Under the pieces are notes generated by a model. That model was not told the origin of the DNA. It saw nothing but the letters and a program-made list of their open reading frames with translations, and did not search any database. Below are positions 7,186 through 19,283 of a stretch of 64,000 nt of DNA, one piece after another (positions within the stretch are counted from its first letter, which is position 1; each line of letters opens with the position of its first letter). The translations under genes and the position numbers were made by a program. Source of the stretch: Clostridiales bacterium (GTDB lineage: Bacteria > Bacillota > Clostridia > Oscillospirales > Butyricicoccaceae); contig JALFIV010000033.1 of assembly GCA_022775385.1 (NCBI GenBank), positions 1-64,000 of the forward strand. The letters are read 5' to 3'.

Positions 7186-7468
7186 AATCGAAAAAAGCAA
7201 ATGCAGAGACCGGAATAGTAGCATCCTGGAGCTGTCAGAGAGCTGTCGGCTGGTGAGAGACAGCAGCGAGAGGAATGTGAATGTCATCCGTGAGCAGTTT
7301 GGGCGAACGGGATCTCCCAAGTAACCGAAATCGGGTCAGCCTCCGTTACAGGGCAAGCATTAAGCAGTTTTTTGCCGATGCGTTCGAGTGGCCGTCCTTT
7401 CCGGCGGCAATAAGAGTGGTACCGCAGAGTTTATCTTTGTCTCTTTCCGAGACGAAGATTTTTTTTTG
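7186..7468 (+). promoter_or_regulatory. T-box riboswitch leader upstream of ilvB
   Basis: aatagtagca near the stem I base; agagagctgtcggctggtgagag AG-bulge/distal-loop-like segment; T-box motif aagagtggtaccgcag (7412-7426); terminator atctttgtctc-tttcc-gagacgaagattttttttt (7433-7468). Confidence 0.9.
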
Positions 7469-15291: not shown

Positions 15292-15569
15292 CGGTGTTGG
15301 AATCCTCCGTTCGGTGCAGGATATTGGTCAAATACTCGTAATAGTATATCACAATTTGTTAGAAAACCAAAGATAGAACCGGAAATCTGCTCAGTTTGTT
15401 TTCAATTTATTTGAATTTATTTAACAATTGACTTGCAAAACACTGTATTGAGTGGTAACATAGGAGTAGACAAATTTGAGGAAATTTACCTGTATCGACA
15501 ATGGCGTCGCTTTCCTGCTGTTGTTCCTGCTGAGTAAGTTTCCTTTTTTTTGAAGGGAGTTATTTTCAT

Positions 15570-16994
15570 ATGGAAACATTAACAAATGTTGTTAATGCGG
15601 TAGACAGCTTTGTCTGGGGTCCGGTCATGCTCATTCTGCTTGTCGGCACGGGCATTTTCCTGACCATCCGCATGGGATTCCGCACTTGGCTGAATCTTCC
15701 TTACGCACTCAAGTCGGTGCTGAGCAAGGAGGCGCGCACGACACAGCGCGGTACGGGCGATATCTCCCCGTTTGCGGCGCTGATGACGGCGCTCGCTGCG
15801 ACCATCGGCACCGGCAACATCGTCGGTGTTGCCACCGCGCTGGTCAGCGGCGGTCCGGGCGCACTGATCTGGATGGAGATCTCCGCAGTCTTCGGTCTGA
15901 CCAGTAAGTTCACCGAGTGCATGCTTGCTATCAAGTACCGCACGGTCAATGAGCAGGGCGAAATGCTCGGCGGTCCGATGACAACCATGAAGAGTGGTCT
16001 GAAGAACAAGACGCTGGGCGCGGTTCTCGCGATGCTGTTTGCAATCTTTGCCGTCATCGCCTCCTTCGGCATCGGCAATATGACGCAGGCAAACTCGATT
16101 TCGTCCGCGCTGGAGAGCACCTTCCAGGTTCCGACCTGGATTACCGGTATTGTCATCACCGTTCTGGTTCTGTTCATCCTGCTCGGCGGCATTTCCCGTC
16201 TGTCCAAGGTATCCTCGGTCATCGTTCCGGTTATGGCGGTCTTCTACCTGATCTTCGGCGTCATCGTCATCGTCGGCAACATCGGCAACCTGCCGTCTGC
16301 CATTGTCCTGATGGTCAAGTGTGCGTTCAGCCCGGCCGCAGTCACCGGCGGCGTACTCGGTACGATCGTCTCCGGCATGATGCAGTCGATGCGCTGGGGC
16401 GTTGCACGCGGCGTATTCTCCAACGAGGCCGGCATGGGCTCCGCGGCGATCACGGCGGCGGCGGCAACCACGGACGATCCGGTTCGTCAGGGCTACATCA
16501 ACATGACGGGTACCTTCTTTGATACCATCGTCATTTGTACGATCACGGGCCTTGCCATCTGCAGCTCGGGTGTTCTGGGTCAGATTGATCCGGCGACCGG
16601 TGAGATGCTCACGGGCTCCGCACTGACCATCGCGGCGTTCCAGACCGTCCTCGGCACCTTCGGCGGATGGATGGTCACCATCGGCATCGCGCTGTTCGCA
16701 TTCTCCACCATTCTCGGATGGGAGTATCACGGCGAGAAGGCACTCGAGTACATCGTCAAGAGTCCGAAGATCTGCATGGTATACCGCGTTCTGTTCTCTC
16801 TGATCGCGTTCATCGGTGCAACCCAGTCCCTCGATCTGGTTTGGAGCTTTTCGGATATCGCCAACGCACTGATGGCAATTCCGAACCTGATCTGCATGCT
16901 GGCTCTGTCCGGTGTTGCGGCAAAGGAGGTCAAGCGCTTCCAGCCGATCATCGAAGAGGAAAAGCGCGCAAAGAAAATGGCAAAGACGAAGTGA
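15570..16994 (+). CDS. sodium:alanine/glycine symporter (AgcS family)
   Basis: 474 aa; GTGNIVGVATALVSGGPGALIWMEISAVFGLTSKFTE; SNEAGMGSAA. Confidence 0.95.
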   Translation: METLTNVVNAVDSFVWGPVMLILLVGTGIFLTIRMGFRTWLNLPYALKSVLSKEARTTQRGTGDISPFAALMTALAATIGTGNIVGVATALVSGGPGALIWMEISAVFGLTSKFTECMLAIKYRTVNEQGEMLGGPMTTMKSGLKNKTLGAVLAMLFAIFAVIASFGIGNMTQANSISSALESTFQVPTWITGIVITVLVLFILLGGISRLSKVSSVIVPVMAVFYLIFGVIVIVGNIGNLPSAIVLMVKCAFSPAAVTGGVLGTIVSGMMQSMRWGVARGVFSNEAGMGSAAITAAAATTDDPVRQGYINMTGTFFDTIVICTITGLAICSSGVLGQIDPATGEMLTGSALTIAAFQTVLGTFGGWMVTIGIALFAFSTILGWEYHGEKALEYIVKSPKICMVYRVLFSLIAFIGATQSLDLVWSFSDIANALMAIPNLICMLALSGVAAKEVKRFQPIIEEEKRAKKMAKTK

Positions 16995-17148: not shown

Positions 17149-17952
17149 ATGACGATGATTAAAATGATCGCCTGTGATATTGACGGAACGATTCTGTTTC
17201 AGGGGGAGACCCGGCTGAACCGCCGGCTGTTTCCGATTATCCGACGTCTGCAGTCCTGCGGCGTGGAGTATCTCTCCTGCAGCGGACGGCAGTACGCCAA
17301 CCAGCGGCGGCTGTTTGCACCGGTCGCCGATGAGATCAGCTATATCTGTGAAAACGGCAGTCTGACCATGTACAGGGGACAGGCAGTCGGCTGTGAGGTG
17401 CTCGACCGCGCGCGGGCACTGGAACTGCTCCGGTTTATCCAGCAGCAGCCGGAGTGCGAGGGTCTGCTCTCGACGCAGAAGTGCTGTTATGTGGTGCCCA
17501 AGTCGGAGGAGTATGTCCGCCATGTCAGAGAAGTAGTCGGGAATGATACCGAGATTGCCGGTGACTGGGACGAGATTCCGGAGGACTTCATCAAGATTTC
17601 CCTGTACGCGCCGGAGGGCGACCTGCCGGCGATTCAGAAGCGCATGGCGGCGTTTTCCGAGCCGTATCAGACACCGGTGCTCGGCGGCTACGGCTGGATT
17701 GACTTTCTGCGCGAGGGGTGCAGCAAAGGGGCGGCGCTCCGGAAATACTGCGAATTCCGCGGCATCAATCCCGGCGAGGTGATCGGCATCGGCGACAATG
17801 AAAATGACCTCGCGCTGCTCGAGACGGTCGGGGAGATGTGGGCGGTTGAGAACGGACATCCCAATCTGAAGGCGCGCGCCAAGCGCACGGTCGGCAGTGC
17901 GATTGACGAGCTGGACCGGCTGGCGTCCCGTCTGGAAGAACAGCGTGCATAA
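17149..17952 (+). CDS. Cof-type HAD-superfamily hydrolase
   Basis: ACDIDGTIL; GIGDNENDLALLE. Confidence 0.9.
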   Translation: MTMIKMIACDIDGTILFQGETRLNRRLFPIIRRLQSCGVEYLSCSGRQYANQRRLFAPVADEISYICENGSLTMYRGQAVGCEVLDRARALELLRFIQQQPECEGLLSTQKCCYVVPKSEEYVRHVREVVGNDTEIAGDWDEIPEDFIKISLYAPEGDLPAIQKRMAAFSEPYQTPVLGGYGWIDFLREGCSKGAALRKYCEFRGINPGEVIGIGDNENDLALLETVGEMWAVENGHPNLKARAKRTVGSAIDELDRLASRLEEQRA

Positions 17953-17995
17953 AAAAGAAAGCGTCTGCTGGTTGGAGCAGACGCTTTCTTTTGTG
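17953..17995. terminator. bidirectional terminator at the end of the HAD gene
   Basis: aaaaaagaaagcgtctgctggttggagcagacgctttctttt. Confidence 0.9.
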
Positions 17996-18023
17996 TATGT
18001 GTGTGTAAAAGGAAAAGAGCGAA

Positions 18024-18054
18024 TAAAAAGAGCCAAACCCAGATGGTTCAGCTC
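18024..18054 (-). terminator. terminator of the orphan glycine riboswitch unit
   Basis: Minus strand GAGCTGAACC-ATCTG-GGTTTGGCTC followed by TTTTT. Confidence 0.75.
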
Positions 18055-18106
18055 TGAAGAGGACACAAGGACACCGCTGCAGGGTGCAGCGAAAGAAAGG
18101 GAGTTA

Positions 18107-18277
18107 CTCTGTCCTTTTGCCTGAGAGATTCGCGGGGAAACACCGCGTTGCACCTTCGGCACTCATCCAATGAGATTCTCCAGAGCTCCATCCGTTCACA
18201 GTCTCATCCGGATTTCCGGACACCTGAGAGTGTTACTCCTTCGGCGGGCGCAGGGCAGCGCCGCTTTTCCTGTGAAC
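18107..18277 (-). promoter_or_regulatory. tandem glycine riboswitch (two aptamers)
   Basis: Minus strand aptamer 1 (18277-18194): GTTCACAG...CCGAAGGAGTAACACTCTCAGG...CTGTGAAC; aptamer 2 (18185-18107): CTCTGGAGA...GCCGAAGGTGCAA...AATCTCTCAGGCAAAAGGACAGAG. Canonical glycine-aptamer consensus elements. Confidence 0.93.
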
Positions 18278-18294
18278 ATCATCTGGCTATACTC

Positions 18295-18323
18295 ATTATA
18301 GAAAAAGGACGGCGGAAAGTCAA
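18295..18323 (-). promoter_or_regulatory. near-consensus sigma-A promoter driving the glycine riboswitch
   Basis: Minus strand TTGACT-N17-TATAAT. Confidence 0.85.
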
Positions 18324-18335
18324 GAGGAAAATGGA

Positions 18336-19283
18336 TTATCTGCCGTATCGTGTCAGACGCTCCTCGACCTGACGCAGGCTGGTGACGCCGGTGGATGCGC
18401 CGACGGTTTCGACCGAGACCGAAGCGCAGGCGTTGGCGAAATAGGCGCAGTCGGCGAAGGAATATCCCGCGAGCAGGGCGTGCTGGAATCCGGCGGCGAA
18501 GTTGTCGCCCGCGCCGGTGGTATCGACACAGTTCGTATCCGGACAGGCGGGAATGCGCTGGCGCACGGAGCCGGAGGCAATCAGACAGCCTTCTGCGCCC
18601 AGCTTGACGATGACATGGCGGGAGCCGGCGGCGAGCAGAACGTCCGCGATGCGGTCGGGATCGGACTCACCGGTGATGACCGCCGCCTCGGTCTCGTTGG
18701 CAAAGACATAGTCCAGCTCGCGCAGGAGCGGCGCCAGCTCACGGGTGGTCTCTCCCTTTTTGGGGAGGACGAAGTCAGCACAGACCGGGATGCCGCGGGC
18801 GCGTGCGGTGTGCGCAATCTGTGCGAGCTGTTCAATGGAGATGAGCGGAAAGACGAAAATGCTGGCGAGCGAGAGCAGACGGACGCCGTTGAGCTGTTCG
18901 GGGGAGAAGTCCTCGGCGCGGAGGCGGCGCAGGCTGCTGTTCCGGTTGTTGTAGAACCGGCGCTCGCCGTCCTCATCCACGAGAACCACATTGACGCCGG
19001 TGTCCATCTCATCGGTGCGGCGGACGTACCGGGTGTCGATGCCGAGACGGGCGCAGTGCGTATCCAGAAACGCACCGGCGGGGTCGCATCCCCAGCAGCT
19101 GATCAAGCGGACGTCATGTCCGAGATTGGCGAGCACGGTGGCTTCGTTGAGCGCGTCGCCGCCGGTTGTCATGCCGATATAGCCGACCGGCGTGGAGTGT
19201 CGGGTGAAAACCGAGCGGTCGGCATGGATGACCGGAATGTCGATGATTCCGGCGCCGAATACCGCGATGTCACAGGATTTCAT
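18336..19283 (-). CDS. PfkB-family carbohydrate kinase
   Basis: GGDALNEATVLANLG; DTTGAGDNFAAGF signature. Confidence 0.92.
   Translation of the reverse strand: MKSCDIAVFGAGIIDIPVIHADRSVFTRHSTPVGYIGMTTGGDALNEATVLANLGHDVRLISCWGCDPAGAFLDTHCARLGIDTRYVRRTDEMDTGVNVVLVDEDGERRFYNNRNSSLRRLRAEDFSPEQLNGVRLLSLASIFVFPLISIEQLAQIAHTARARGIPVCADFVLPKKGETTRELAPLLRELDYVFANETEAAVITGESDPDRIADVLLAAGSRHVIVKLGAEGCLIASGSVRQRIPACPDTNCVDTTGAGDNFAAGFQHALLAGYSFADCAYFANACASVSVETVGASTGVTSLRQVEERLTRYGR

Follow-up and report, generated by a model that had tools for sequence, protein, structure and literature searches.

A gene-less tandem glycine riboswitch in a Clostridiales bacterium is conserved in a sister species and may act as a glycine-sensing noncoding RNA on the neighbouring agcS1 gene

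Organization of the locus

The window analysed here is a stretch of 64,000 nucleotides from the genome of a Clostridiales bacterium, in the following designated G000. The locus of interest is a short unit on the minus strand, located between the sugar kinase gene pfkB and a convergent operon consisting of agcS1 and a gene for a HAD hydrolase. The following features were assigned:

15570 to 16994, plus strand: agcS1, alanine/glycine:cation symporter (TIGR00835, 463 bits; PF01235)
17149 to 17952, plus strand: HAD-IIB (Cof-like) hydrolase, located behind agcS1 in the convergent operon (PF08282)
about 17992 to 17953, both strands: bidirectional terminator, common to the orphan unit and the agcS1-HAD operon (from the fold)
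18055 to 18029, minus strand: terminator 1, predicted to be ligand-controlled (terminator scan: 11 pairs, T5 tail)
18187 to 18181, minus strand: 5′ strand of aptamer-2 P1, AGCTCTG, at the same time the antiterminator strand (complementary to 18056 to 18050)
18193 to 18099, minus strand: glycine aptamer 2 (RF00504, 58.4 bits)
18282 to 18189, minus strand: glycine aptamer 1 (RF00504, 39.9 bits, whole-genome scan)
18323 to 18295, minus strand: promoter TTGACT-17-TATAAT (consensus scan, 11/12 consensus bases)
18336 to 19283, minus strand: sugar kinase of the PfkB family, encoded upstream of the unit in the same orientation (PF00294)

An initial annotation made from the letters alone had described a near-perfect promoter, two glycine aptamers, an intrinsic terminator and the bidirectional terminator of a convergent HAD gene, with no gene downstream on the minus strand, and all of these elements were recovered by the dedicated scans. 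The promoter was the best among three promoter-like sites in 4 kb (1.3 in shuffled sequences). With an RF00504 cut-off of 32 bits, both aptamers were accepted in the whole-genome scan, while the window-level scans listed aptamer 2 alone. The fold of terminator 1 has an energy of -15.3 kcal/mol (z -3.6), and that of the bidirectional hairpin -26 kcal/mol (z -8.8). The convergent HAD gene was confirmed as well, as part of an agcS1-HAD operon and not as a gene standing alone. Neither the list of open reading frames nor the comparison of loci revealed a minus-strand gene beyond the aptamers, in G000 or in the sister species G006 described below; open reading frames past the aptamers run only through the riboswitch or antisense to the HAD gene.

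The unit thus has its own promoter and terminator and is noncoding, as is characteristic of base-pairing sRNAs. With respect to RF00504, it has the aptamer sequence and structure above the cut-off and the P1-terminator platform, but not the control in cis of a downstream gene. Because 12 nt without a terminator separate the pfkB stop codon from the -35 box, the unit also constitutes the 3′-UTR of MATE-pfkB. On the opposite side, the facing operon encodes agcS1, so that the sensed ligand matches the likely substrate of the convergent neighbour. Upstream of agcS1 itself, neither a glycine riboswitch nor any other Rfam element was found. Elsewhere in the window, a T-box leader (RF00230, 114.8 bits) was detected at 7197 to 7447 on the plus strand.

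Design of the predicted switch

In G000 the P1 strand AGCTCTG can pair with CAGAGCT (18056 to 18050), which is overlapped by the 5′ arm of terminator 1. This attenuation pairing, already noticed in the initial annotation, is kept with 6 bp in G006, and the same relation is realized with other bases in many agcS leaders of the family (TCACTCTG/CAGAGTGA, TGGCTCTG/CAGAGCCA and TGACTCTG/CAGAGTCA), in a comparison for which the terminator finder missed seven leaders and picked doubtful hairpins in a few. Since many family leaders keep the relation with other bases, a common platform with glycine-promoted termination is supported. Where tested, agcS glycine riboswitches are OFF switches (PMC11477304), and the orphan unit, as judged from its base-pairing potential, retains this OFF-type platform of agcS leaders, with either P1 or the antiterminator, and terminator 1.

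According to the platform, glycine would close the P1 stem of aptamer 2, terminator 1 would form and an RNA of about 265 nt would result, whereas without glycine the P1 strand would disrupt terminator 1 and the RNA would run to the second terminator (about 340 nt). These predicted sizes replace the approximately 230 nt proposed initially. Minimum-energy folding gave opposite preferences, for the antiterminator form in G000 but for the terminator form in G006, and the ground state is therefore not settled by energies alone.

Conservation and selection

Among 12 genomes of the genus, the unit was found in one sister species, G006 (contig JAUNSG010000002.1, 'Eubacteriales bacterium isolate S4M_St_42'), with 81% DNA identity over 350 nt. 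Synteny in relatives had been suggested as a check at the outset, and G006 carries the unit in an identical arrangement, i.e. MATE, pfkB and the orphan unit followed by HAD and agcS1 on the opposite strand.

Conservation between G000 and G006 differs from element to element. Fourfold-degenerate sites of the five neighbouring genes are 55% identical, and for neutral sites and spacers taken together the identity is 35-58%. The promoter hexamers are identical at 12/12 positions and the spacer between them at 6/17 (Fisher p = 0.0004 for the hexamers versus the spacer plus upstream bases). The aptamers are identical at 151 of 167 positions, with all four substitutions of aptamer 2 located in or beside loops. 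Both terminators keep their folds in G006, where the bidirectional hairpin reaches -23.4 kcal/mol (z -8.1). The linker further downstream is identical at only 26/45 positions and differs by an indel of 10 nt; recent sharing of the locus alone therefore does not account for the conservation of the other elements.

Decay at the neutral rate, which the initial annotation had named as an outcome that would speak against its proposal, is not what these figures indicate. In this one comparison between two sister species, the element-wise conservation argues for a promoter and an RNA that are in use and makes a decaying relic unlikely. Very probably, the orphan unit represents a selected and expressed RNA.

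One further segment, TTTACACACACATACAC (17993 to 18021, minus strand), is located between both terminators and is fully conserved in G006, whereas its flanks are not. It would be single-stranded in the predicted read-through RNA and corresponds on the other strand to the U/G-rich tail of the HAD terminator.

Riboswitch loci in relatives and ancestry of the unit

agcS1 was found in all 12 genomes of the genus with no riboswitch beside it outside the orphan locus, and is followed by HAD in most genomes where the contig covers this position. RF00504 matches were obtained in nine of the 12 genomes; apart from the orphan unit they are located upstream of agcS2, a paralogue 41-45% identical to agcS1, and this includes G000 and G006. 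In the genus and family, the riboswitch lies directly before agcS at 36 of 36 loci read, and the same holds for 40/40 loci of the order sample, three of which were missed by the pattern and read by hand. As each of these 76 other riboswitch loci has agcS directly downstream, agcS is the natural client. A link to glycine cleavage was rejected because gcvT was not found in any of the 12 genus genomes.

Two observations were made alongside. At L171 (G415:C7), two glycine riboswitches are located 2 kb apart on one strand (about 3004 and 5052, minus strand), the second of which precedes agcS and the first a gene with no assignment. In two genus genomes, neither of which has a glycine riboswitch match, agcS1 aligns piecewise with the agcS1 of the window, as far as about residue 345-361, and is part of a longer open frame (L131 in G003, L146 in G007).

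The orphan unit is up to 81% identical to leaders from other genera of the family (G045) and 70% identical to the agcS2 leader of its own genome. In the tree it groups apart from the agcS2 leaders, with inner forks that are only partly supported. For the agcS subfamily behind the closest leaders, the genus offers no close relative, the best match being 45% identical. The pfkB-MATE block adjoins HAD only in G000 and G006 and is located elsewhere in relatives. A simple inversion of an ancestral riboswitch-agcS1 unit is not supported, since the order truA-agcS1-HAD is kept genus-wide without a nearby riboswitch and it is pfkB-MATE that has moved. A recent copy of the own agcS2 riboswitch is likewise not supported, since the orphan unit is 70% identical to it while identities of up to 81% are reached with another genus, several tree forks being weak. 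From this pattern we infer that the unit came with an agcS gene around the pfkB-MATE rearrangement and subsequently lost it. The part of the initial annotation that considered a relic detached from its target may hold for the ancestry, the leaders of an agcS subfamily absent from the genus being the closest, but neutral decay is not supported.

Candidate pairing with the agcS1 Shine-Dalgarno region

Prediction of base-pairing targets, as suggested in the initial annotation, was performed for five candidates, the start regions of agcS1, HAD, pfkB, MATE and agcS2. It yielded the Shine-Dalgarno (SD) region of agcS1 as candidate; the annotation had named neither agcS1 nor a pairing site. Two segments are involved:

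15552 to 15566, plus strand: candidate target GAAGGGAGUUAUUUU, SD region of agcS1, complementary to the orphan seed
18110 to 18096, minus strand: candidate seed AGAGUAACUCCCUUU, overlapping the P1 3′ strand, 15-bp complement of the agcS1 SD region

The seed, which extends just 3′ of P1, can form 15 contiguous base pairs with the target (12 Watson-Crick and 3 G-U pairs), and both segments are identical in G000 and G006. Shuffled orphan RNAs reach the pairing energy with P = 0.004 in G000 and P = 0.001 in G006. No other sequence compared paired as strongly with the agcS1 SD; the comparison covered 734 further tiles of 340 nt from the window, 174 tiles from the G006 locus and 70 leaders of real glycine riboswitches. 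The genome-wide target search was a pattern search with the degenerate 15-bp pattern; in G006 it matched agcS1 and the orphan itself only, and in G000 these two plus a single position within an open reading frame, so that agcS1 is the sole gene-start site found with this pattern in both genomes. Among the five candidates, strong SD pairing recurs in both species for agcS1 only; weaker duplexes were predicted for pfkB in G000 alone and, with a tail segment, for MATE in both species.

Several observations limit how this complementarity is to be read. About 9 bp of the seed pairing are anti-SD pairing of a kind offered by most or all of the genus, and G002, a genome without the orphan, has a 16-bp chance match to the seed. 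Scores above that of agcS1 were obtained in G000 for four further start regions, which match structured portions of the orphan RNA. Furthermore, the CUCC of the seed may instead extend P1 via GGAG. The conserved complementarity between seed and target exceeds chance, subject to the generic anti-SD pairing and the G002 match.

The agcS1 leader (15478 to 15551, plus strand) contains a conserved hairpin GACAAUGGCG with the loop UCUCGUUCC or UCGCUUUCC, followed by CGCUAUUCG or a similar sequence. A T tract lies behind this hairpin, directly in front of the SD, in most if not all of the 12 genomes; the hairpin resembles an attenuator with a fixed loop and has no Rfam family match. It is overlapped by a short open reading frame (15501 to 15533, plus strand; MASLSCCCSC* in G000, MASRSRYSYVCIFC... 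in relatives), which is probably a by-product of the conserved RNA, a leader peptide being the alternative.

Interpretation and alternative explanations

The best explanation, although a tentative one, is that a former agcS leader has turned into a free-standing glycine-sensing noncoding RNA which, less surely, represses agcS1 by SD pairing. That agcS1 is the target of the RNA is conceivable enough to be preferred over other targets, and pairing to the SD as the mode of action is put forward with more reserve. The complete reading, in which a captured agcS-type tandem riboswitch serves as a ligand-sensing sRNA without a cis gene and silences the neighbouring agcS1 via its SD, is more doubtful still. 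Of the two possibilities raised in the initial annotation, a small RNA or antisense regulator that responds to glycine has the better support, from selection on the unit, the kept switch, the missing downstream gene and the candidate agcS1 SD site, all of which are read from sequence.

In the proposed mechanism, the orphan RNA would pair via AGAGUAACUCCCUUU with the agcS1 SD region and translation of agcS1 would be repressed, both being less certain than the action of the switch. Uptake would then be controlled as by an ordinary agcS riboswitch, but through RNA-RNA pairing. Without glycine, P1 would release all 15 nt of the seed, whereas with glycine bound only the UAACUCCCUUU part would be accessible. 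An active terminated RNA would mean lower uptake at high glycine, as known from ordinary agcS riboswitches; the sign of the glycine response would be reversed if the read-through form, with its seed fully released, is the more active one. Counted against agcS1 as target is that this gene already has its own conserved attenuator-like leader.

An antisense-acting riboswitch of the ubiG-mccBA or AspocR type, in which read-through at low glycine hinders agcS1-HAD by collision or duplex formation and glycine accordingly raises agcS1-HAD expression, is unlikely, even though the geometry at the 3′ end of a functionally matching convergent operon is that of the published cases (PMC9943018) and the predicted read-through RNA would overlap the HAD mRNA within the bidirectional terminator. 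This terminator is very strong, conserved and located directly behind terminator 1, so that little antisense RNA is expected to reach HAD or agcS1, and a transporter that goes up with glycine would be the opposite of the known agcS riboswitches (PMC11477304).

A selected glycine-sensing RNA with other targets, i.e. an mRNA in trans, a protein, or the 3′ end or stability of the MATE-pfkB mRNA, is also improbable. The selection on the unit would suit it, as would pfkB running into the unit without a terminator and the several other G000 start regions with helices of similar or higher energy; however, among the gene starts compared none of those helices recurs in both species, as the one with agcS1 does, and a role as pfkB terminator alone would require neither aptamers nor promoter.

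Still less probable is a relic without present function, whether transcribed or silent, that once served as leader of an agcS gene since lost or displaced. The resemblance to leaders of an agcS subfamily lacking in the genus and the position at a rearrangement found only in G000 and G006 would be expected for such a remnant, but promoter, aptamers, P1/antiterminator and both terminators are conserved against the divergence of neutral sites and spacers. Finally, a riboswitch of an unrecognised small minus-strand protein is very improbable and a downstream small open reading frame was rejected, because the 47-aa and 352-aa minus-strand frames that overlap the region start inside the aptamer, cross the terminators or run antisense to HAD, the 47-aa frame has no Pfam match and neither is kept in G006.

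Relation to known systems and significance

With the tandem glycine riboswitches (RF00504) located before agcS, the orphan unit shares both aptamers, the linker, the P1/antiterminator/terminator platform and the theme of ligand and transporter; it differs by having no downstream gene, by forming a short unit of its own that ends at a second terminator, and by the convergent position of agcS1 on the other strand. The SAM riboswitch at ubiG-mccBA of C. acetobutylicum and the B12 riboswitch of AspocR in Listeria are antisense-acting (PMC9943018, PMC8079631). Common to these and the orphan unit are the position at the 3′ end of a related operon, the opposing transcription and the OFF platform, whereas the ligand is glycine instead of SAM or B12 and the strong bidirectional terminator would stop the RNA before the operon.

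Ligand-terminated regulatory RNAs as proposed here are represented by SreA/SreB, SAM riboswitch RNAs of Listeria acting in trans, and by the B12 riboswitch-controlled sRNA Rli55/EutX. SreA acts by base pairing, as suggested for the orphan RNA, but still has a cis gene and pairs far upstream of the SD, and Rli55 sequesters a protein, whereas for the orphan RNA an SD target is predicted and a cis gene is missing. The use of a C-rich segment against the SD is known in Gram-positive bacteria from the icaR 3′-UTR (UCCCCUG), RNAIII and RsaE of S. aureus (PMC3868564); unlike the orphan these RNAs are not ligand-controlled, and icaR acts within one mRNA.

Riboswitch RNAs that act in antisense or in trans are thus known for SAM and B12. 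For glycine riboswitches, a published count gives 32 in antisense versus 3,153 in sense orientation, and the permease- and gcv-linked antisense examples were attributed to spurious small genes. In the literature searched, which covers part of what is published, no description of a glycine riboswitch as a gene-less sRNA was found.

Riboswitches are generally treated as cis elements. If the reading proposed here is true, it shows how a switch acting in cis can, once its gene is lost, turn into a regulatory RNA gated by a ligand, and the defined seed and target make this testable by compensatory mutation. As a caution, riboswitches without a downstream gene should not be filed as annotation errors.
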